From assembly GCF_027587195.1 (NCBI RefSeq), contig NZ_JAPDDP010000057.1, positions 1-49,802 of the forward strand: a stretch of DNA of 49,802 nucleotides. The letters are read 5' to 3'. Both the position numbers and the translations under genes were made by a program. This document shows, in pieces, positions 28,407-43,581 of the stretch; position 1 is the stretch's first letter, and the number at the start of each line of letters is the position of its first letter. The stretch comes from Solirubrobacter phytolaccae. GTDB taxonomy: Bacteria; Actinomycetota; Thermoleophilia; Solirubrobacterales; Solirubrobacteraceae. Below the pieces are notes generated by a model, which saw nothing but the letters and a program-made list of their open reading frames with translations, had not been told where the DNA came from and made no database searches.

Positions 28407-28480
28407 GGTGGGCGTAGCTCAGTTGGTAGAGCTCTCGGTTGTGGTCCGAGCGGTCGCGGGTTCGAGTCCCGTCGCTCACC
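28407..28480 (+). tRNA. tRNA-His (anticodon GTG)
   Basis: A complete cloverleaf: acceptor stem GTGGGCG with CGCTCAC, D-arm GCTCAGTTGGTAGAGC, anticodon stem CTCGG/CCGAG around the loop TTGTGGT (anticodon GTG) and T-arm with GGTTCGAGTCC. The extra G at position -1, pairing with the discriminator C, is the identity mark of histidine tRNA. CCA is not encoded. The 3' half of the gene is the integration site of the adjacent element and is duplicated at 43,506. Confidence 0.96.
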
Positions 28481-28511
28481 CCTCAAGGAAACCGCGCACT
28501 TGCGCGGTTTC
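28436..28511 (+). repeat. attL: 76-bp direct repeat in tRNA-His 3' half
   Basis: This 76-bp segment, from the anticodon stem of tRNA-His through its terminator, is repeated without a mismatch at 43,506-43,581. Repeats of a tRNA 3' end bracketing a tyrosine integrase are the standard footprint of site-specific integration. The left copy keeps the tRNA intact. Confidence 0.93.
28489..28510 (+). terminator. terminator after tRNA-His
   Basis: AAACCGCGC and GCGCGGTTT form a perfect 9-bp stem with a 4-nt loop, followed by CTTGCGTT. It ends tRNA-His transcription and is included in the duplicated att sequence, so a second copy is at 43,559-43,580. Confidence 0.8.
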
Positions 28512-31732: not shown

Positions 31733-32907
31733 TCACGGCTCTGGCGCCAGGTTGCCCACGGCGCGCATGAACTCGCGATCTAGGCTGGAGACCTGGGCTT
31801 TGTCAACGCCGGGAAGCAGCGGGCCTCGTCTCATGACGATGTGTTCGTTGCTATTGCGTCGTGGGAAGTGCCCGCCGGCGATGACGATCGTGACGTAGAC
31901 GTCGCCGAAACCTCCGAGGTCGCTGACGAGTTGGTCCGCGATCACCCATCGCGAAGCTATGCGCGTTTCTGCGAAATTGTCGGGGTACACGTCGTCCATC
32001 GCCAGACGCTCGCCCACTGCAGCTGATGCGTCCCACGCCGCTCGGGCCACCGTGATTGAGCGCACATTCCCGCCCATCTGGTGACGCCAAGTCAATGCCT
32101 CCTGAGACCACGTGACGGGATCCGGCGAATCCGCGTAGAAGCCGGCAGGGAGTCCGCTCGGGCGGTCCAGAAGCTGGTTCCAGATCCGCTCAGCGAAGTC
32201 AGTCTTGAATAGGCGTGCGGAGATGTCGGGCGGGTTCCCCGTTGCCGCAACGCCGACAGCGAACCGGACCGGGGCCGATGCTGTCGGTTCCGTGAAGTCT
32301 GATGGGTCTTCGTCCACGGCTCGCGCTGGCGCCCACGCTCCCGAAAGACGCCCGGCTCGGCTTCGAGCCAGTCCCGGAGAACTGCGAGAGCAGCACGGTC
32401 TGCGCGCTCCTGTGTGGTGCGCCGCGCGAGGTCGCCTTTCGCGAAGAGCTCCGCCAGCCGTGTCGGATCTCGCACGGTCTGCGATTTCCCGGGTAGCCGC
32501 TCGTACAGCGTGCCGTTGGCCATACACGGTGGAGTTGGCGTAGGAGACACTCTGACAATCGCCACGTGCCCGTTCTGAGCGCGCCATGCAAGGACGTCGA
32601 AGTCAGGCCGTGGGCGAACCCCACGCTCGGGGTCGGCGACCACGTTCGTTATCCACGTGATTGGCTCATCCGGAAACTGCATCCCGTCCAACGTCCATCC
32701 CGCGCCTCCGGACGCGCGGGCCGCGCCTAGGATCAGGAACCCACCCTCATGACTATTCGCGAAGGCGCACACCTGAAGACGCACCTCGCTCTTATCGAGC
32801 TTCGTGCCCTTGGCCTCCCAGAGCAAGGGTTCGTCATCAGCCTGCGCCAGAAACGCTGAGACGGTCGCGAGATCCAACGCCGACCACGGCGCGCCGAAGA
32901 TCGTCAT
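31733..32907 (-). pseudogene. AlbA_2 (Schlafen-like) domain protein, frameshifted
   Basis: The frame from the ATG at 32907 encodes an AlbA_2 domain (LLWEAKGTKLDKSEVRLQVC, AFANSHEGGFLILGAA, FDVLAWRAQNGHVAIVRVSP, then YERLPGKSQTVRDPTRLAEL). It stays plausible until about DWLEAEPGVFRERG and then turns into an Arg/Ser/His-rich nonsense tail. From about 32,325 a second frame continues sensibly (AVDEDPSDFTEP, RFAVGVAATGNPPDISARLF) to a stop at 31733. A one-base indel near 32,325 therefore splits a protein of about 390 residues. It may be a true mutation or a sequencing error. It lies 53 bases behind the UvrD-type helicase gene on the same strand, so they form a two-gene unit. AlbA_2 proteins include nucleic-acid-binding and anti-phage proteins. 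Confidence 0.7.
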
Positions 32908-32960: not shown

Positions 32961-34982
32961 CTAGAGATCCTTCGATACGCGGACCGCATCCCCGGCCCAT
33001 TCAGTGCTGACGCCCTCAGGCCCTGGGCTAAATCGCACGCCGAGATGAGATGCAAACCGCGATGCTTGATGCGGGGTCGATTGCCCGTTGATGAATCTTC
33101 GGTTCGCGTAGCTGAGGAGGCATGCGAGACGTGCTCGCGTGATCGACACGTAGAGCATTCTTGCGGCTTCCAAGACTTGGCCCGGATACCTGGCGCGCGT
33201 CTCCCCGGGGAGGATTTGCTCTTCCAAACCGGGGATCAGGACGACGGTCGCAGAGAGCCCTTTGGCGCCGTGCATCGTCATGACGCGGACTCGATTAGGA
33301 AGCGACTCCTCGGGGCTAAGGTCATTGCCCAAACGCGCGTGTATCGCGGAAAGGATGGACGCGCGCTCGTCGTCCTTCTCGGAACTGAGAAATCGCGCTA
33401 ATTCAGCGATCGTCGTGCCTGCCGGAACGATCTCTACCTCATCACGCCAACTCGAGGTCGCGTCCGCGCCAAGGATCATCGCGATGACGTGGTCCAGGGC
33501 TTCGGCTCGATCCTCGACGGCGTCGTCGCTGCTCCATTCGAGCAATACTTCGCAGACTTCTCGCGCTTGATCGAGGGCTGTTTCAGCACGTGGGCTGAAC
33601 ACGTCTTCTGGCAAGGCCTCGTAGAAGATGTCGTGGTAGTTGAGGTCGTGCTCGATCGTCGCATCGGCGATTGCCGTTGCGGTAACGATTCCGACGCCGC
33701 TGCGCAACTCAAGCAAAGTTCGGAGGGCCACGTAATCGTCGCGGTCGCTAACGATGCGCGCGACCGTCATTACGGCACGACCGACATCGGTATCGCGAAA
33801 CGCCGTCTCTCTTGGGGGCTCGAATGGGACGTCGAGCTTGTCGAACGCCGCACTGAGCTGCCACTGCAGCGCGCGTGCATTGCTGACTAGGACCATGATC
33901 TCCCGCGGATCCATGCCAGCATCGATAAGTCGGCGGCACGAAAGCGCGACGAACGTAGCCTCTTCAGCGGCGCTCCCGTAGCGCCAGCACTGAATCGTTC
34001 CGTTGACTCGCGGTTCCGAGTCCGCGTACAGCGAAACCAGATCCTTCGGAATTCGCTTTGGCGCGGCGTTCTGAGTGATGAGGGCGTCGGCCGAAGCCAG
34101 CACGGCCGGCGTGCACCGGAAGCAGTGCTGGAGCACGTGGCTTCCCGCAACTTCGAACTGGTCTGGGAATTCCTGAATGCCTGACGGATCGGCGTACCGG
34201 AAGGAATAGAGGCTCTGATCGTCATCCCCGGCTACGAAGAGCGTCGCACCCAGCTCTGCGAGACCGTAAACGAATCTCAGGTCCATCGGATTCAGATCTT
34301 GGAACTCGTCGACGATGAGATGCTCGATGCCAAGCAGCTCGATCGGGTCCAACGTTCCGGCGTCGAGCATCTGGACGCACTTTTGCACGATCTCTCCGGG
34401 GAGCACGCATGCATACAGCTGTGTTCGTGGCCCGTGAAAGGCGCGAAACGCGACGCGCTCCGCGTCCGAGATCGGTGGGTCGGGCGGTCTCTGCGCAGGA
34501 CGTTGAGTGTGCTGTCCCGTGCTCCAGAACGCCTCGTGATCCTCTCGAATCTCGCGGCGCCGACGCACGGTTCCGATATTTGCCCGGCGCGCAAACTCCG
34601 GGTCGAAGAGCTTCGTTAGCTCCCATTCGTCAAGAACGAGCGGATCGACTGGGTATGCGGCAAGCGCACCAGCCGCCCGAAGCGTCCGGAGAGCGAGTGA
34701 GTGCAAGGTCGTCACAGCTATGTGCGCCTCGCCGTGGTTTGAGCGCTCGCATGCAGCCTGAACCCGTTTCTCGAGGTCCTGTGAGGATGCGCGCGTGAAA
34801 GACACCGCGGCGACCGACTTGGGGTCAGCGTTCTCGTTGAGAAGTCGAACTACGCGCTCCTCGATCGTGTACGACTTTCCCGTCCCCGGGCCTGCGACCA
34901 GCCGCACTCGATCGCGATCGTCGGCGGCTGCCGCCACCTGAACGGCTCCCGCTTGCCTTTTCTGCTTGACGGTGATGCCCAC
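32961..34982 (-). CDS. UvrD/PcrA-like superfamily 1 DNA helicase
   Basis: 673 residues with the full SF1A motif set: Walker A GPGTGKS (31-37), motif Ia AAVSFTRAS, motif II VDEFQDLN (224-231), motif III GDDDQSLYSFRY (252-263), motif IV region FRCTPAVL, motif V VMTMHGAKGLSATVV and motif VI ARMLYVSITRAR. It should be an active 3'-5' translocase. No nuclease domain is attached. It differs from housekeeping UvrD in its length and in the divergent 2B region (residues about 380-560). In an island, paired with an AlbA_2-domain protein, it is more likely part of a defence or element-maintenance pair than a repair gene. The CTTGC-5-GCAAG palindrome at 35050-35064, 67 bases upstream, could be an operator. 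Confidence 0.88.
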   Translation of the reverse strand: MGITVKQKRQAGAVQVAAAADDRDRVRLVAGPGTGKSYTIEERVVRLLNENADPKSVAAVSFTRASSQDLEKRVQAACERSNHGEAHIAVTTLHSLALRTLRAAGALAAYPVDPLVLDEWELTKLFDPEFARRANIGTVRRRREIREDHEAFWSTGQHTQRPAQRPPDPPISDAERVAFRAFHGPRTQLYACVLPGEIVQKCVQMLDAGTLDPIELLGIEHLIVDEFQDLNPMDLRFVYGLAELGATLFVAGDDDQSLYSFRYADPSGIQEFPDQFEVAGSHVLQHCFRCTPAVLASADALITQNAAPKRIPKDLVSLYADSEPRVNGTIQCWRYGSAAEEATFVALSCRRLIDAGMDPREIMVLVSNARALQWQLSAAFDKLDVPFEPPRETAFRDTDVGRAVMTVARIVSDRDDYVALRTLLELRSGVGIVTATAIADATIEHDLNYHDIFYEALPEDVFSPRAETALDQAREVCEVLLEWSSDDAVEDRAEALDHVIAMILGADATSSWRDEVEIVPAGTTIAELARFLSSEKDDERASILSAIHARLGNDLSPEESLPNRVRVMTMHGAKGLSATVVLIPGLEEQILPGETRARYPGQVLEAARMLYVSITRARLACLLSYANRRFINGQSTPHQASRFASHLGVRFSPGPEGVSTEWAGDAVRVSKDL

Positions 34983-35902: not shown

Positions 35903-36352
35903 ATGGTTCAGATGCCTGGCAGTGCGAACTCCGACGAGAGTTACGTCCTTGACCTGACCGACGATCTGCTTGGCGAACGTGCCAGTCGACAACATCGCTT
36001 CGACTGGTTGCTGGGAGACCCGAGCTCTAGCGGGAACCGCCGTAAGCTCCCGGTCGACGGCTATTACAAGCGGCACGCGCTCGTCGTCGAGTACCACGAG
36101 CGCCAGCACGAACATCCGGTGCCGCATTTTGACAAGCCGGATCGGATGACTGTGAGCGGCGTCGATCGAGGAAAACAGCGTCGGTTGTACGACGAGCGGC
36201 GGCGAGAACTCATCCCCTGCCACGGCCTCAGGCTCTTAGTGATCCGTGCCGGCGATCTGGCAACAGACTCGCGAGGACGACTGCATCGAGATCAGCAGGC
36301 CGACCTTGTGGTCCTTTCAAAAATGCTCAAAAGCTTCGTCCTCCTCGGTTGA
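35903..36352 (+). CDS. possible PD-(D/E)XK-type nuclease domain protein
   Basis: 149 residues. The core is RFDWLLGD, then LPVDGYYKRHALVVEYHERQ and FDKPDRMTVSGVDRGKQRRL, then YDERRRELIPCHGLRLLVI. The spacing of D52 and E63 on adjacent strands (VDGYY, VVEYHERQH), followed by a helix rich in basic residues, is what a small restriction-fold nuclease looks like; the third catalytic position would be H65 or Q68 instead of Lys. I recognise this as a widespread uncharacterised actinobacterial type rather than a named family, so nuclease activity is inference. ATG at 35903 is used; a second Met three codons later is possible. It ends 18 bases before a strong hairpin. Confidence 0.6.
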   Translation: MVQMPGSANSDESYVLDLTDDLLGERASRQHRFDWLLGDPSSSGNRRKLPVDGYYKRHALVVEYHERQHEHPVPHFDKPDRMTVSGVDRGKQRRLYDERRRELIPCHGLRLLVIRAGDLATDSRGRLHRDQQADLVVLSKMLKSFVLLG

Positions 36353-36499: not shown

Positions 36500-37159
36500 T
36501 CAGCCCTCGTTGGACACGTTGAGGATCGTCTGTCCGGCATGCCACCGCAGACGACGCGCCGGATCATCGAATCCGGGCTTCCCCGGCCGCGGCAAAGGCT
36601 GTGTCGCTACCTCGGCAAACTGCGCGCCGTCCCAGCGGTAGAGCACCTCGTCGCGGATGCCACTTGCATAAGGTTCGTCGGCGTGTGGTTGAACGGTGGC
36701 GATCTCAACGCGTCCATCAGCGTCAAGGTCGCCCACTGTGAATCCCATCGGTGTTCCACTCCCGATCTCGGCCAGCTTGCTGAAGCTGTCTGGCCACTCG
36801 TCGCGCTGTCCGAAGACGTGAAGCATCGAGCTGTGAGGGCCCCATGGAGATGCCACAAGCAACTCGTCCCTTCCGTCGTTATTGACGTCGGCGACGGCTA
36901 TCGCCCAGCGGCGCGCCTCATTGCCGTCGATTGCTGCGTCGGCTCCAGCAGTCGTTGAGATCCCGAGTGCCCGAGCGATGTCTGCGACTTTCACACCAAG
37001 CTCTTCTGCTTTCCGAATTGCTCGGCTGTCCCGCTCCGCAGCGTTCTGGTCCGAAGTCCGAGAGTGCTTCAGCGCCCACACAGAGAGCAGCACGCCGAAC
37101 GCGGTGAGCCCAAGCCCTAGAACACCGACTGCAAGTCCAATCAGGGTAGAGGCGTCCAT
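36500..37159 (-). CDS. membrane-anchored FG-GAP/VCBS repeat protein
   Basis: 219 residues. An N-terminal hydrophobic helix (LIGLAVGVLGLGLTAFGVLL, about 6-27) is followed by a charged helix with a helix-turn-helix-like stretch (EELGVKVADIARALGIS). Then come two FG-GAP-type calcium-loop repeats: VADVNNDGRDELLVASP and VGDLDADGRVEIATVQP. The repeats usually fold as blades of a beta-propeller; two repeats are too few for a full one, so this may be a shortened member. It could be displayed on the surface or in the membrane. The role in the island is unknown; it is not an obvious mobility gene. Confidence 0.65.
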   Translation of the reverse strand: MDASTLIGLAVGVLGLGLTAFGVLLSVWALKHSRTSDQNAAERDSRAIRKAEELGVKVADIARALGISTTAGADAAIDGNEARRWAIAVADVNNDGRDELLVASPWGPHSSMLHVFGQRDEWPDSFSKLAEIGSGTPMGFTVGDLDADGRVEIATVQPHADEPYASGIRDEVLYRWDGAQFAEVATQPLPRPGKPGFDDPARRLRWHAGQTILNVSNEG

Positions 37160-37339: not shown

Positions 37340-37985
37340 TTAAGGAGTGATACCTCGCGCAGCCGGCTGGTAGTGCGGAGAGATCGCGGTCGTATCCGGG
37401 TCCTCGTGGCCCATCCACGCCTAGATCGTTCGCATCGGGACGCGGGCCGCGTCACAGCGCGTGCCGAACGTGGCGTAGCTCGTGGAACGTGATCTCGCGG
37501 ACCTCTGCGCGCTTCAGGGACACCTTGAACCGCTTGGGCAGCTCGGACCGATCGAGCGGCTTGCCGAGCCCGGGGTGGCCGAAGACTAGGTCGTCATCTG
37601 CCTGTAACCGCGACCGCTGGAAGAGTCGCTCGAGCTCCTGAGCCATACGCGTGGCCATCGGGACTGACCGAGCGGACTCTTCGCTCTTCGGTTCGTTGAA
37701 CTCGCCGAGCACGTAGCCGTCGACGACGGGGACGCGCTCGTTGGTCCAGTCGATGTGTCGCCAGCGCAGCGCGAGTAGCTCGTTCTGGCGGAGGCCGGTC
37801 ATGGCGGCGACCAGGTAGAGGGATGACTCGATCGTTCCCAGCGCGTCCTCGGGAAAGTCCACGCGCACGAGCGCCTCGAGCACCTCCTGCGTGAGAAAGC
37901 GGATGCGGATCTTGTTGCACCGGAGCTTCGGCCCTTCGGTGAGCTTGACCGAGTTGGCCACACACCACTGGGCGCGTCGCAATGC
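37340..37985 (-). pseudogene. second tyrosine integrase, truncated and frameshifted
   Basis: From QWCVANSVKLTEGPK to REITFHELRH it aligns with residues about 162-327 of the intact integrase at 42171-43355, with roughly 18 substitutions over 141 residues counted by eye. The N-terminal 160 residues are missing. After HELRH the frame shifts (RHVRHAL-stop) although homologous DNA continues down to about 37340, including the region encoding WMGHEDPDTTA. The catalytic Arg (TGLRQNE) and HELRH survive but the rest is gone, so it is inactive. It is in direct orientation with the intact copy and the giant DUF6602/TPR gene lies between them, pointing to accretion of two related elements or an internal recombination. 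Confidence 0.85.
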
Positions 37986-38070: not shown

Positions 38071-41000
38071 GTGTCCTACGAGGGCTTTCGCGAGATGCTT
38101 CGGCAGGAAGCCGCGATGCTGGCGGCATCCGCAGCACGACACTCGGCGCTTTCACAGCACAAGCCCTCGCGCGGAACAGCGCGTGAGGCCGCCGTCGCGG
38201 ACGCGCTTAGGGCACGGTTCCCGATGATCGAGATGCTGCGGGGGGAGGTGATGGCACCGGGATCAGGCCCTAGCAGCGAATGGGACGTGATCCTGCACGA
38301 TCCCTCGCGCGGGGCGCCACTGGCCGGTGAGGGAGACGCCCACGTCGTCCCGATCGAAACGGTCGTGGCGGTCGTCTCGGTGAAAAGCCAACTAGGCACT
38401 TCCGCCGTCGTGGAATGCGCCGGTGCGGCAGTTCGCCTTCGGGGCTTGGTCACGCAGGAGTTTCCAGAGATGCCGTTGCCCGCTGTCTTCGCATTTGGTT
38501 TTGAAGGCGTGAAGGGAGACACGCTCTCGGACGCTCTAGCCGACGCGTCGACGACGCATGGAGCCATGTCACGGGTTGACGGCTTGCTTGTCCTTGGCCA
38601 GAGGCTCGCGCTGCCGTCTCCGGAGGGATACGCGGTTTCCGATGCTGGCCCGGACGCCTATGGCCATTGGATCGCGGCGATTGATTTTGCCGTGGAACGA
38701 GCTCCCAGGAGCCGGATGCGTTACTCGCACTATCTCGGGCCCGAGCCGTCCAGCGGCGCTGTTTCATCGCCGTTCTCGTACTTTGCCGAGGGCAGTGCGG
38801 TCGCGGCTGTCGTCACGGAGACCTCTATAGCCCCGGAGTCTTCGTCGTCGGTTCCCGAGACGGCCACCGATGATGTACGCGACGTACCTCTCGGATTGGC
38901 GACTCGACCAGCCGCTCAGGATCTCGGGGCTTCGCGGATGATGCGTCGGGTCGTAGACGAGCTTCGAGCGCATGACTCGAATGCCGCGATCAAACTGAGT
39001 AAGGCGCTGGAAAGTCGCGACGCGCTAGTCAATCTCGCCCATGCTGAACACGGTCGCCTCCTGGCCTACGTGGCGGCGGCCGTGAGCGTTCTTGGGGAGA
39101 TGCGGCTAGCGGCGGCCGCGTTCGAGCGTGCGTCCAGCGAGACCGATGGAGACGAGAGCGCCTCCCTCTTGGCGCGGGCAGCGATCACGTACCGAGCCGC
39201 GGACGAAGCCGCGTCCGCCGACGCGATCATGGACCGTGCGAGCGACGACCTGCGTCCCGGGTTCCGGCTAGCACGCGCTTCCCTGCTGGACGATGCGACC
39301 GACCGAGTAACGGAGCTGCGGGCTATTCAGCCTGCCCTCCCATGGGAGGGTCGCTTCCGGGACGTTCTCCTCGCGAAGTCTCTTTACGAGCTTGACCGCG
39401 AGCCGGAAGCCGAGGAGGCCGCGCGAAAGGCACTCCAGGATGCGTGGTCGCTCTCCGCGGCCGAGCTGCTGGTGCGCTGCCTAATGGCGGCTGACCGTCG
39501 GAGTGCACGCGACCCGTCGACAGCTCGACAGGATTCGTCGTACGACGAAGCGATCCAGGTGCTCGACGATGTAGCGCACGAAGCACTGACCCTCGGACAT
39601 CTTGACCAAGCGATGATCCACGACGGGGACCTCGTGCGGGCCCTCGCGCGACGCCATCGTCATCCAGATGTTGACGGAGTAGTGGGATGGTGGACGAGCC
39701 GAGGCTCGGCCGAGGCGCGAAGCGCGACAGCGCGCGCGGCCTTAGCGTCCGCGCTGCTTGGGGCGCATCGCCAGGATCTCGCGGTGAGGATCGCCCCAGG
39801 TAGAGATGCGACCGATGAGACGAGCCGTCTGTTGTGGTTGCAGCTTGATCTCGGGTCATCCGATCCCAATGTGGCCGCGGCGGCAACCCAAGCGCTAGAC
39901 CGGCAGATCGAAGCGGCAACGGACGACCAAGACGCTCTAGCGCTGGCGAACATTCGTGCAACAGCCTCGTTGGACCATGGCGCTCCATGGAGCGATCGTG
40001 CTGCGGAGATTCTCGGGCGCGAGGCGCCTTTCTACCGTGACCAATTGCTGTCCTCGTACCTCGCCAGACGGGGCGACTCTAAGCAAGCGGAAACGATCTT
40101 GCTGGCCTACGCTGACACGTTGGTCGGAAGGCGCGCGCTGATAGACGTTGCTGTCGACGCAGAGGATTGGGAGCGGGTCGTCACGCTCGTTGAAGACACC
40201 TTGGGTGACGAGCCGCCTCCGATCGAGAGGTTGCGTCGCGCCGACGCCCTCGAGCAACTCGAACGCCATTCCGAGGCAGAGACGGCCTGGCGTGCGCTTG
40301 CGGAGGCCGGCGACACCCCCACTGCGATGCGCGAACATGCCTGGTACAGATTCGCCTCATCACTAGCTACTCGGCAGCAGTGGGATGCGCTCGCCAAGGC
40401 GGCAGTTGCCTGGTCAGAGGCATGCCCTGAAAGCTCGCAGGCTGCTTGGGCTGCTGCCGAATCACTCGCCCGAATTGGGGACGCGTCAGCTGGATTGGAG
40501 CTGCTCGAACGCGCTGGCGAACGACCGGAAAGTGATTCGCAACGGCGGCTGGTTGCCCGGCTGATTGCAAACGCGCGACCGATCACCGAGGCGCTTGAAC
40601 GTATCGCTCGTCTTTCCGACGAAATTGCTCGACGTGACGAGACGTTGGAAGCGATGCTCATCACGCTCTCAATCCGAGTCGACTTCGAACTCGACGCGGA
40701 ACTCGAGCGGCGGCTGCGCTCGACGTTCGCGGAGTTCCCCGAGCGTTTCCCAGAGTCCGCGCACGTGCAGTCCTTCAGTGCGCCGTCTACCGCCGAAGGG
40801 TGGAGCGAGTTCGCCGAGCGACACCTGGGGCGGCGAGAACGCTGGGCCTCCGAGATCCTTGAGCAGATCTCCGGTGGTAGTGGCGCGCTATCGCTGCTGG
40901 CGGTCCTTGGACGGACTTCGCTCGAGGTTTGGATCGAGAGCCGTCTGCTCCCGCTCGTGACTCCGTTGCGGGACTTGCAAGAACTTGAGGTGTCCGACGC

Positions 41001-42132
41001 TGATGCCGCGATTGCGCGTGCTGCGTCCTGGGACGGATCTGTTCTTGCGGTGCTCTCCCTGCTTCCTGAGGCCTCATCGGGGGCCGTCCGCCGCGCACTA
41101 CCGGGCTCGGTCGTGCCGCGAGCAATTGCTGAAGAGGTCGAAGTGCTCGGACGTGAGCCAGACAGCAACAGCGCGGGGACCCTTGGGTGGGATCCTGACT
41201 CCGGTCGTCCGACGCTTTGGACAGATTCAGAAGAATCGGTCGCCGCCAGAACGAAGCGCATCGAGAAGCTCAGAGAAATCGCTCGCACGCTCGCCGTTCT
41301 GGACCCGGATGTCGGCGGCACCAGCGATGCCGCTGGAGCCTTACGTAGCGGAGACCTGCATCATTCGGCAGCGACTTGGTTGGGAGCGCTCGTGCTCGCG
41401 ATCGACCGCGGCATTCCGTTCTTCTGCGACGACCGCTATCTCCGACGTTGGGCGCGACAGCAAGCCGTTCCAGCCTTTGGAACCGCAGCTCTGCTCGAGG
41501 CCATGAGGCGCCGAGGTGTGCTTACAGAGCCCGATGCGCGTACGGCGGTGTGGACGCTCCGCGGTGCCGGCGGTCGGTATCTGCGACTCGAAGCGAACGA
41601 GCTTGCCGCTCGAGTCTCGGCCGATGATTTCGAAGTAAGCCCTGCCGTAGACACCACGCTTCTAGACCCAGACGGGTGGCTAGTAGATGCGGAGACCTCG
41701 ATCGAGGCGTGGGATCTGGCGTTGAGGGCCATTTGGAAGGCCAGGCCAAGCAGACTGGCGGAGTGGATTGCGCATCTCGTGACTCGGTTGAGGACCGTTC
41801 ATGGCCGTCGCCCTGGGGCTATCTGCGCCGTTCTTCTCAGCAGAGCGGCGCTTGGGGACAGTGCGGATTCCGACTACTGTCGCGCATTGCTTGCCGCATT
41901 CAGTCGTTGCGAGCGCGTCTTCTGCACGGTCGAGAACCCCGTGGATGAGCTTGTTGCGAACGCTGTTCAGACGGCCACTGCAACTGGTTCGGTTCCTCCT
42001 ATCGTTCCCTTGGTTGCGGTGCTGTCTCGGCTACCGATGAAGTACCAGCTCCGCGTTCTCGGCCTTCCTGCGGGCCCCGACTGGCGATTGGGTCTCATCG
42101 AGGACGGAACTGCGAAGCAGCCGCCTGTCTGA
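38071..42132 (+). CDS. giant protein: DUF6602/restriction-fold head, helical repeats, PIN-like region
   Basis: About 1,353 residues. The N-terminal 130 residues resemble DUF6602: SQHKPSRGTAREAAV (E39), APGSGPSSEWDVILHD (D72), PIETVVAVVSVKSQL (E96, K105). This is a PD-(D/E)XK-like layout, although the Glu usual in E-V-K is Ser103. Residues about 330-1000 are a long alpha-helical region with TPR-like Ala-rich pairs (AAAAFERASSETDGDE, EEAARKALQDAWSLSAAELL). Near 1110-1160, AIDRGIPFFCDDRYLRRWAR and AFGTAALLEAMRRRGVL resemble the end of a PIN nuclease domain. No membrane segments. The GTG at 38071 (SYEGFREML) is used; ATG at 38095 is an alternative. It lies between the broken and intact integrases, inside the island. 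A nuclease-based defence role is inferred; it matches no named system I know. Confidence 0.75.
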   Translation: MSYEGFREMLRQEAAMLAASAARHSALSQHKPSRGTAREAAVADALRARFPMIEMLRGEVMAPGSGPSSEWDVILHDPSRGAPLAGEGDAHVVPIETVVAVVSVKSQLGTSAVVECAGAAVRLRGLVTQEFPEMPLPAVFAFGFEGVKGDTLSDALADASTTHGAMSRVDGLLVLGQRLALPSPEGYAVSDAGPDAYGHWIAAIDFAVERAPRSRMRYSHYLGPEPSSGAVSSPFSYFAEGSAVAAVVTETSIAPESSSSVPETATDDVRDVPLGLATRPAAQDLGASRMMRRVVDELRAHDSNAAIKLSKALESRDALVNLAHAEHGRLLAYVAAAVSVLGEMRLAAAAFERASSETDGDESASLLARAAITYRAADEAASADAIMDRASDDLRPGFRLARASLLDDATDRVTELRAIQPALPWEGRFRDVLLAKSLYELDREPEAEEAARKALQDAWSLSAAELLVRCLMAADRRSARDPSTARQDSSYDEAIQVLDDVAHEALTLGHLDQAMIHDGDLVRALARRHRHPDVDGVVGWWTSRGSAEARSATARAALASALLGAHRQDLAVRIAPGRDATDETSRLLWLQLDLGSSDPNVAAAATQALDRQIEAATDDQDALALANIRATASLDHGAPWSDRAAEILGREAPFYRDQLLSSYLARRGDSKQAETILLAYADTLVGRRALIDVAVDAEDWERVVTLVEDTLGDEPPPIERLRRADALEQLERHSEAETAWRALAEAGDTPTAMREHAWYRFASSLATRQQWDALAKAAVAWSEACPESSQAAWAAAESLARIGDASAGLELLERAGERPESDSQRRLVARLIANARPITEALERIARLSDEIARRDETLEAMLITLSIRVDFELDAELERRLRSTFAEFPERFPESAHVQSFSAPSTAEGWSEFAERHLGRRERWASEILEQISGGSGALSLLAVLGRTSLEVWIESRLLPLVTPLRDLQELEVSDADAAIARAASWDGSVLAVLSLLPEASSGAVRRALPGSVVPRAIAEEVEVLGREPDSNSAGTLGWDPDSGRPTLWTDSEESVAARTKRIEKLREIARTLAVLDPDVGGTSDAAGALRSGDLHHSAATWLGALVLAIDRGIPFFCDDRYLRRWARQQAVPAFGTAALLEAMRRRGVLTEPDARTAVWTLRGAGGRYLRLEANELAARVSADDFEVSPAVDTTLLDPDGWLVDAETSIEAWDLALRAIWKARPSRLAEWIAHLVTRLRTVHGRRPGAICAVLLSRAALGDSADSDYCRALLAAFSRCERVFCTVENPVDELVANAVQTATATGSVPPIVPLVAVLSRLPMKYQLRVLGLPAGPDWRLGLIEDGTAKQPPV

Positions 42133-42170: not shown

Positions 42171-43355
42171 CTAGCCCGCTCGACCAGTTGTTGAGTTGCC
42201 CACCCGGGTGTACGCCGGTGTGCCGTGCGCGAAAGCGGTGTCGAGCAGGGAGACTTCTCGCGCAGCTGGCTGGTAGTGGGCGTAGATGGCGGTCGTGTCG
42301 GGATCCTCGTGGCCCATCCACGCCTGGATCGTTCGCATCGGCACGCCGGCTGCAGCGCAGCGAGTGCCGAACGTGTGCCGCAGCTCGTGGAACGTGATCT
42401 CCCGCACCTCCGCGCGCTTCAAGGCGGCCTTGAAGCGCTTGAGCAGCTTGGACCTGTCGAGCGGCTTGCCAAGTTCGGGGTGGCCAAAGACGAGGCCGTC
42501 GTCGGCCTGATAGCGAGACCGCTGGAACAGGCGCTCCAACTCGACCGCCACGCGCGTTGCCATCGGAACTGAGCGGGCGGACTCTTCGCTCTTCGGATCG
42601 TTGAACTCGCCGAGCACGTAGCCCTCGACGACACGGATGCGCTCGTTGGTCCAGTCGATGTGTCGCCAGCGCAGCGCGAGTAGCTCGTTCTGTCGCAGGC
42701 CGGTCATGGCGGCGACCAGGTAGAGGGAGGGCTCGATCGATCCCAACGCGTCCTCGGGGTAGTCCACACGTACGAGGGCTTCTAGCTCCTCCTGCGTGAG
42801 GAACCGAATGCGCATCTTGTTGCGCCGGACCTTCGGTCCTTCCGCGAGCTTGACTGGGTTCGCCACGCACCACTTGCGGCGCTGTCCGAGCACGAAGATC
42901 GAGTGCAGTACGCCGAGGAGATTCCGGATCGTCTTGGGCGCGAGCCCGGCGGAGAGCTTCGCGTCGATGAACCGCTCGACGTGGTCCTCGGTGAGCTGCG
43001 CGAGATCCTTGCCCTTGAACTGCGGAGCCACCGCGATGTGCACGCGGATGCAGCCCTCGACGTTCACCAGGTAGGACTTCTTGGCCCCGCGCGCCTTCAG
43101 CCGTCGGAGGAGCGCGGCGCCGGCCTCCGCCACGGTCACGCGCTCGACGACCGACGAGGCAAGGAGCGACTCGTCCTCGATCATCGACCGCAGCTTCGCC
43201 TCGGCCTGCGTCTTGGTCAGACCGTCGCGCTCGCCGGGTGTGCGCAGCGCGCCGACCTTGCGGTTGCGCTGACGTCCACTCGGGTCACGCCAGCGGCCGT
43301 ACCAACTGCCGTTGGTCTCGTAGAGGTGTCCGGTGCCGTACGAGCGCTTGCCCAT
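42171..43355 (-). CDS. int: tyrosine-family site-specific integrase of the island
   Basis: 394 residues. The N-terminal arm-binding region begins GKRSYGTGHLYETNGSWYGR and the core-binding (SAM-like) domain covers about 70-165. The catalytic domain has R221 (TGLRQNE), a Lys around 255, H323-x2-R326 (HELRH), H349 (MGHED) and the nucleophile Y358 (TAIYAHY). All active-site residues are present, so it should be functional. The ATG is preceded by AGGAGAAGG at good spacing. It is placed 150 bases from attR and reads inward, typical of islands in tRNA genes. It would recombine the 76-bp tRNA-His att sequence. The upstream DNA holds the right-hand GGAACAA repeats, which may also allow autoregulation. 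Confidence 0.94.
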   Translation of the reverse strand: MGKRSYGTGHLYETNGSWYGRWRDPSGRQRNRKVGALRTPGERDGLTKTQAEAKLRSMIEDESLLASSVVERVTVAEAGAALLRRLKARGAKKSYLVNVEGCIRVHIAVAPQFKGKDLAQLTEDHVERFIDAKLSAGLAPKTIRNLLGVLHSIFVLGQRRKWCVANPVKLAEGPKVRRNKMRIRFLTQEELEALVRVDYPEDALGSIEPSLYLVAAMTGLRQNELLALRWRHIDWTNERIRVVEGYVLGEFNDPKSEESARSVPMATRVAVELERLFQRSRYQADDGLVFGHPELGKPLDRSKLLKRFKAALKRAEVREITFHELRHTFGTRCAAAGVPMRTIQAWMGHEDPDTTAIYAHYQPAAREVSLLDTAFAHGTPAYTRVGNSTTGRAG

Positions 43356-43400
43356 GTCCTTCTCCTGAAAGAGTCGGCATCGGCACGGCTTCCTGAAGGG

Positions 43401-43438
43401 CGACGGAACAATCTTCGGAACAAATTGAGCCGAACAAA
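43401..43438. promoter_or_regulatory. GGAACAA repeats, probable arm-type integrase sites (right)
   Basis: GGAACAA at 43405-43411 and 43417-43423 with a related CGAACAAA at 43431-43438, between the integrase start and attR. They mirror the left-end repeats at 28546-28574 in sequence and nearly in spacing (12 versus 11 bases). Confidence 0.6.
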
Positions 43439-43457
43439 CCTGACCTAAGACCACAAT

Positions 43458-43479
43458 ATTTGGCTCTAGAGAGCCAAAT
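43458..43479. other. 8-bp stem-loop next to attR
   Basis: ATTTGGCT and AGCCAAAT form a perfect stem around CTAGAG. It lies between the integrase promoter region and attR, inside the element. It could be an Xis/Int-bound site or a terminator insulating the integrase from the flank. Confidence 0.45.
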
Positions 43480-43505
43480 CGCACCCAGTCAAATCGGTAT
43501 CAGTC

Positions 43506-43581
43506 CGGTTGTGGTCCGAGCGGTCGCGGGTTCGAGTCCCGTCGCTCACCCCTCAAGGAAACCGCGCACTTGCGCGGTTTC
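43506..43581 (+). repeat. attR: second copy of the 76-bp tRNA-His repeat
   Basis: Identical to 28436-28511. It begins at the anticodon stem, so it is only the 3' half of a tRNA and is not a working gene. It includes the duplicated terminator (43559-43580). The sequence to its right would be the original chromosomal DNA downstream of tRNA-His. Confidence 0.93.

Follow-up and report, generated by a model that had tools for sequence, protein, structure and literature searches.

The closest described relatives of the protein analyzed here belong to a conflict system predicted by Kaur et al. (2021, eLife; PMC8195603), in which a constant core of TPR, GreA/B-C and PIN domains is combined with EAD10 or with one of 13 effectors. 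The part of that paper drawn on here names REase, HNH, PNPase, TIR, SIR2, trypsin, BTLCP and a HetE-type domain as effectors, and predicts that the system counters invaders by acting on RNA polymerase and holds the variable effector as a fallback. No experimental test of this class was found in the open-licence literature, and the word DUF6602 was found in none of its papers. PIN domains have been validated in defence elsewhere, according to the cited portion of the DefensePredictor report (PMC13092281), a statement that does not extend to membership in PF20698. In the same portion, PIN catalytic residues are described as essential for phage defence by DS-3, a single protein without antitoxin whose PIN domain is split between the two termini, and by DS-5, which consists of two proteins. 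Here we describe a protein of 1,353 residues with a DUF6602 head and a TPR-PIN core, encoded in an island at a tRNA-His gene of Solirubrobacter phytolaccae. The window, i.e. the whole stretch of DNA analyzed, comprises 49,802 nucleotides (contig NZ_JAPDDP010000057.1, positions 1 to 49,802, assembly GCF_027587195.1).

We read this protein, with a probability of roughly 60%, as a single-gene, island-borne, abortive-infection-type anti-phage protein of the TPR-(GreA/B-C)-PIN kind, with a NucC-like head as killing effector. Judged by its domains, it appears to be a genuine variant of the predicted class, with a NucC-like head and no detectable RNA-polymerase module. An earlier note, made from the letters alone, had proposed a single-gene defence or toxin system that fits no named system. 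Single-gene defence is still what the protein is best read as, but the TPR-PIN core turned out to be that of a named system, the TPR-GreA/B-C-PIN conflict system (family PF20698), as far as the cited part of PMC8195603 describes it. Like that system, the window protein combines a C-terminal TPR and PIN core with an exchangeable N-terminal effector and is encoded by a mostly lone gene. Unlike it, the clade of the window protein has no detectable GreA/B-C, and the head is of DUF6602/NucC-like type, which the "REase" named among the 13 effectors may or may not cover. DS-3 and DS-5 were compared by description. The parts of the protein are as follows.

38071..42132, + strand: gene of the DUF6602(NucC-like)-TPR-PIN protein, 1,353 amino acids, stop codon included in the coordinates; possible starts GTG 38071 and ATG 38098
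38152..38403, + strand: DUF6602/NucC-like PD-(D/E)XK head, residues 28-111, with D72, E96, S103 and K105; E115 lies just beyond
38923..40665, + strand: body of TPR-like helical repeats, roughly residues 285-865 (boundaries set by us), from profile comparison with solved TPR proteins
40666..41028, + strand: segment between TPR and PIN, the expected place of GreA/B-C; none detected
41029..41457, + strand: PIN-TPR-GreABC domain, residues 987-1129, with the acidic residues D988, E1022, D1120 and D1121
41458..42129, + strand: C-terminal extension, residues 1130-1353, of which residues 1161-1340 were compared with relatives

The open frame is real. It spans 1,353 codons, whereas among 200 first-order random versions of this stretch the longest frame between two stops reached 401 codons. 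Over its whole length the protein can be aligned, at 39% identity, with a homologue in genome G422, from another genus of the same family. The longest frame begins at 37891. Because the segment up to 37978 is antisense to a decayed integrase copy, translation more likely begins at GTG 38071 or at ATG 38098. No promoter-like site was found by a promoter scan; a terminator scan gave two terminator-like sites, fewer than in shuffled sequences.

Proteins were scanned with Pfam, with the PADLOC models (10 open reading frames of the window) and with NCBIfam. Over residues 28-111 the head scored 40.7 bits for DUF6602 (PF20247; cut-off 27) at 2.4e-10. PADLOC assigned PD_DExK (8.4e-15), the Effector (NucC) model (3.2e-5) and NucC (6.5e-4) to the 1,353-residue protein. 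A search of the PDB with this protein alone gave nothing meaningful. A head profile was made from three DUF6602 heads, namely those of the window protein, the G422 homologue and a separate copy in the same genome. Among solved structures its positions 6-158 matched Serratia NucC (7zgv, E 6.6e-15), and it also matched Vibrio NucC (6uxf, 1.2e-11) and E. coli NucC (6p7o, 1.8e-10); five NucC chains were matched in all, at 6.6e-15 to 1.7e-9. The restriction-fold head proposed in the earlier note is borne out by these matches. The residues it had singled out, E39, D72, E96 and K105, are present and invariant across the three aligned heads, and the serine it saw before V-K is Ser103, two residues before K105. 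D72 and K105 are aligned opposite an Asp and a Lys of NucC, which we take to be catalytic in that enzyme, and the NucC Glu two residues before the Lys lies opposite Ser103.

Free NucC is switched on by a cyclic trinucleotide. The head resembles this effector nuclease of CBASS and type III CRISPR systems in its profile match to 7zgv and in having D72 and K105 in place. It differs in being fused to a TPR-PIN body of 1,100 residues, where NucC is free, and in carrying Ser for the Glu of the E-x-K motif; moreover, Pfam and PADLOC recognized no cyclase family in the subset of island open reading frames scanned. In order to compare active-site columns, we used 11 DUF6602 domains from 10 of 399 genomes of the class. 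D72, E96 and K105 are retained in both heads fused to TPR-PIN. The residue two before the Lys is Ser in both fusions, against Glu in eight and Gln in one of the nine other domains; the latter lie in open frames of 258-494 amino acids and are not all independent, since L045 and L046 have the same sequence throughout the part compared. Conversely, the residue at K+10 (E115 in the window protein) is Glu in both fused heads and in none of the nine others. In the CCGG-family enzymes NgoMIV/Cfr10I, according to the cited parts of PMC6326814 and PMC6344858, a Gly, Ala, Ser or Thr stands where E-x-K has its Glu, and another Glu may substitute (K187 ... E201 in NgoMIV). Because these enzymes show a like exchange of the Glu and because the fusions have a Glu at K+10, we propose that the head perhaps uses a permuted active site with E115 (D72 ... 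S103-x-K105 ... E115), a suggestion drawn from two sequences. The candidate Glu lies at K+10 here and at K+14 in NgoMIV, i.e. four residues or about one helical turn earlier, and the parallel is an analogy only, with no sequence relationship shown.

A second DUF6602 gene of the same genome, on contig C112 (L002/L018), is unfused and has Q-x-K. Its neighbour is a gene with a weak, sub-cut-off likeness to SIR2, and an AlbA_2 gene lies a few kilobases away, so that this is perhaps another defence island.

The long helical repeats seen in the earlier note are TPR-like. A profile of the middle region from nine sequences matched designed TPR proteins, best 9qhb at 2.2e-20, a value that sums many weak repeats without a single passing stretch; 8bu0 (1.9e-14) has two passing stretches. 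Natural TPR proteins such as CDC27 and SKI3/TTC37 were matched as well. Pfam reported no TPR match for the window protein alone and TPR matches above cut-off for two relatives (L009 and L017). By profile comparison, the middle is a repeat scaffold.

GreA/B-C (PF01272) was absent from the window protein at E<=1, from eight relatives at E<=0.5 and from L039 at E<=0.01, in scans without a positive control. The profile of the linker segment found no GreA in the PDB at E up to 5, and hhalign of core segments against two GreA proteins of the same genome gave no match, with shallow alignments and again without a positive control. Searches for PF01272 in seven relatives' genomes gave 13 places, and the genome of the window gave two, all of them away from the TPR-PIN genes. 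A very divergent GreA/B-C copy in the TPR-PIN clade is possible.

The PIN region matched PF20698 (PIN-TPR-GreABC) over model positions 2-137 of 138 (E 5.7e-11, 43.3 bits, cut-off 27.8). The earlier note had recognized the C-terminal half of a PIN domain; the assignment to PIN stands, the domain covers more than a half, and its fold is weakly backed outside Pfam. At positions 988, 1022, 1120 and 1121, each of the ten collected proteins of the family has an acidic residue (Asp or Glu). The top PDB matches of the PIN profile were unrelated Aca2 proteins (0.08-0.09), followed by the PIN-type proteins TTHA0540 (0.22) and VapC6 (0.54). With hhalign, three ordinary PIN proteins of the same genome gave no match (shallow alignments, no positive control). 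Further downstream, residues 1161-1340 are 38% identical to the G422 homologue and 14-20% identical to the other eight proteins.

In the G422 homologue (L008 9002-13450), the PIN region is matched by PADLOC PDC-S70 models at 4.1e-5; no such match was seen for the window protein.

The ten proteins are those of the window, of seven genomes whose relatives came from PF20698 scans or sequence searches (G422, G404, G602, G755, G595, G320 and G049), of an Arthrobacter plasmid (WP_223987846.1) and of the congener G399. The G399 protein (L039) was placed among them by sequence similarity (6.4e-16) and alignment. Left out were G425 (L007), which was dropped as a family member because of a short frame, a match below cut-off and no visible TPR, and a match on a Streptomyces plasmid. 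The head varies on the common TPR-PIN core: two of the ten proteins carry DUF6602, one carries SIR2_2 (G404), and in seven no head scores above the Pfam cut-off. A by-eye reading of the L015 head as REase-like found no support from Pfam or PADLOC and was given up. The DUF6602-TPR-PIN architecture recurs in the G422 homologue, and a FastTree phylogeny of the core groups both DUF6602 proteins as a pair (support 1.000); the fusion therefore looks inherited as a unit.

The family is spread patchily. Matches to PF20698 came from 7 genomes in the class sample (399 genomes), 4 in the sample of relatives (101) and 3 in that of the phylum (396); the samples overlap, and the first two counts include G425. 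The C-terminal half, searched for in 146 genomes of the family, was found in 6, the genome of the window included. Scans of genome collections with back-translated peptides found no relative. In tblastn searches of plasmids, the window protein and its head gave no match, L010 retrieved the one Arthrobacter plasmid, and L015 retrieved the same plasmid and the Streptomyces match.

The gene lies in an integrated element, in agreement with the island-borne, single-gene protein of the earlier note. Perfect 76-bp repeats of the tRNA-His 3' end delimit an island of 15.1 kb, which contains an integrase, and the decayed second integrase copy sits just before the 1,353-residue gene.

28408..28482, + strand: tRNA-His(gtg), the integration site
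28436..28511, + strand: left end of the island, a 76-bp direct repeat overlapping the 3' end of tRNA-His; the two copies are 100% identical
32961-34982, - strand: UvrD helicase, best PADLOC match GajB (4.4e-45)
37354..37978, - strand: decayed second integrase copy, 85.4% identical to 42257-42886, with a partial Phage_integrase match
42171..43484, - strand: tyrosine integrase of the island (Phage_integrase, 9.8e-30)
43506..43581, + strand: right end of the island, the second copy of the 76-bp repeat

A comparison of the right-flank DNA within the genus gave no clear empty site. In the congener G399, an integrase-like stretch (67% over 696 columns) comes after tRNA-His. A second, partial copy of tRNA-His (48 bp, 94%) lies about 92 kb on, some 260 bp past a TPR-PIN gene with a different head; the 92 kb between the copies may or may not be one element. 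The tRNA-His site looks like a hotspot.

Defence or mobility genes lie near some relatives, so that homologues do not occur in housekeeping contexts alone. In G399 (L039 633-10829), an OLD-TOPRIM ATPase and a UvrD gene stand in tandem about 2.6 kb before the TPR-PIN gene, a pair that looks Gabija-like by Pfam. A SIR2 gene and an AAA_10 gene lie about 5 kb and 1.6 kb, respectively, from the TPR-PIN gene of G422, a type IIG-like enzyme about 5.7 kb from that of G320 (L010), and an integrase adjoins that of G755 (L017). On the Arthrobacter plasmid (L021), mobC and a relaxase are close by. The association of homologues with defence genes and integrases, raised in the earlier note, holds for these relatives, while the surroundings of G404, part of G755 and, by eye, G049 are ordinary.

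In the interpretation that we favor, the TPR superhelix would keep the protein silent and, by analogy, sense infection. The conserved PIN domain would be the constant RNase effector or trigger, and the exchangeable head, here NucC-like PD-(D/E)XK, a second, killing effector. Fusion to the sensor would free the head from any need for a cyclic trinucleotide. Both modules are putative nucleases. A more specific version, which we put forward tentatively, is a NucC-type DNase wired to a TPR-PIN sensor with neither second messenger nor docking domain, a one-protein system which would use a rebuilt S-x-K plus Glu site and attack DNA together with RNA once infection is sensed. A NucC head under such a sensor would, if this is true, show NucC-like killing under protein-only control, and the Ser/Glu exchange predicts specific active-site mutants. 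The same exchange could be read as loss of function, leaving the head as an oligomerization or DNA-binding module while only the PIN domain acts, cutting RNA. The Ser in both fused heads, against Glu in eight of nine other DUF6602 domains, and the acidic PIN positions kept in all ten proteins would fit. However, neither fused head has lost D72, E96 or K105, the Glu at K+10 appears in two of two fused and none of nine other domains, and the NgoMIV family also lacks the motif Glu and uses another (PMC6326814 and PMC6344858, cited parts). We regard an inactive head as rather unlikely. The published mechanism would have the protein dock on RNA polymerase, the PIN domain cut the extruded transcript and the N-terminal effector serve as a fallback suicide module. 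It has in its favor the membership of the TPR-PIN core in PF20698 and the proposal itself in the cited part of Kaur et al. (2021; PMC8195603). Yet the docking module is undetected in the window protein, in eight relatives and in L039, and each PF01272 place in the genomes searched, those of seven relatives and of the window, lies elsewhere, which makes this mechanism improbable here. A TPR-PIN core without detectable GreA/B-C raises the question whether the class can do without docking on RNA polymerase. It is also unlikely, if less so, that the gene protects or stabilizes its element by anti-plasmid action, inter-element competition or addiction, and does not serve phage defence. Its location in an integrated element, flanked by one intact and one decayed integrase, and the integrase, relaxase or tRNA ends near some relatives would suit such a role, but the neighbours in G399 and G320 are of anti-phage type, and no antitoxin-like partner was recognized by eye among open reading frames of at least 100 amino acids.

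Several observations weigh against the anti-phage reading that we favor. The replacement of the E-x-K Glu by Ser in both fused heads suggests that the head could be inactive, and because GreA/B-C is undetected, the mechanism published for the class, through RNA polymerase, is not transferable to this protein. The PIN fold is weakly supported, mainly by the Pfam model and the conserved acids; in protein scans the G755 protein (L017) stays under the PF20698 cut-off (23.0 against 27.8 bits), and L039 has no Pfam match at 0.01. No NCBIfam family matched the 1,353-residue protein, and single-sequence AlphaFold models of residues 1-220 and 840-1353 were unusable (mean predicted local distance difference test scores, pLDDT, of 41.9 and 42.0). 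Scans of virus contigs, made with narrow patterns, found no relative. Finally, some neighbours are ordinary: a luciferase-like gene in G404, an acyl-CoA dehydrogenase in G755 and, by eye, those in G049.

The GajB-like UvrD gene at 32961-34982 raised the candidate of a Gabija system in the window; it was rejected, as no GajA was found in the 10 open reading frames scanned. Elsewhere in the window, a Schlafen AlbA_2 (PF04326) frame at 32095-32907 (- strand) overlaps a frame at 31733-32587 (- strand) that by eye could continue it, so the gene may be broken. A 149-residue frame at 35903-36352 (+ strand) looks Vsr/restriction-fold-like by eye and has no Pfam match, and 36500-37159 (- strand), inside the island, encodes an FG-GAP repeat protein with an N-terminal stretch that is hydrophobic by eye. 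In G396 (L059 994-11497), 10.4 kb separate tRNA-His from a 48-bp partial copy and carry M28 peptidase, radical SAM-SPASM, HD and MFS genes; by frame lengths, G401 (L062) has the same layout.

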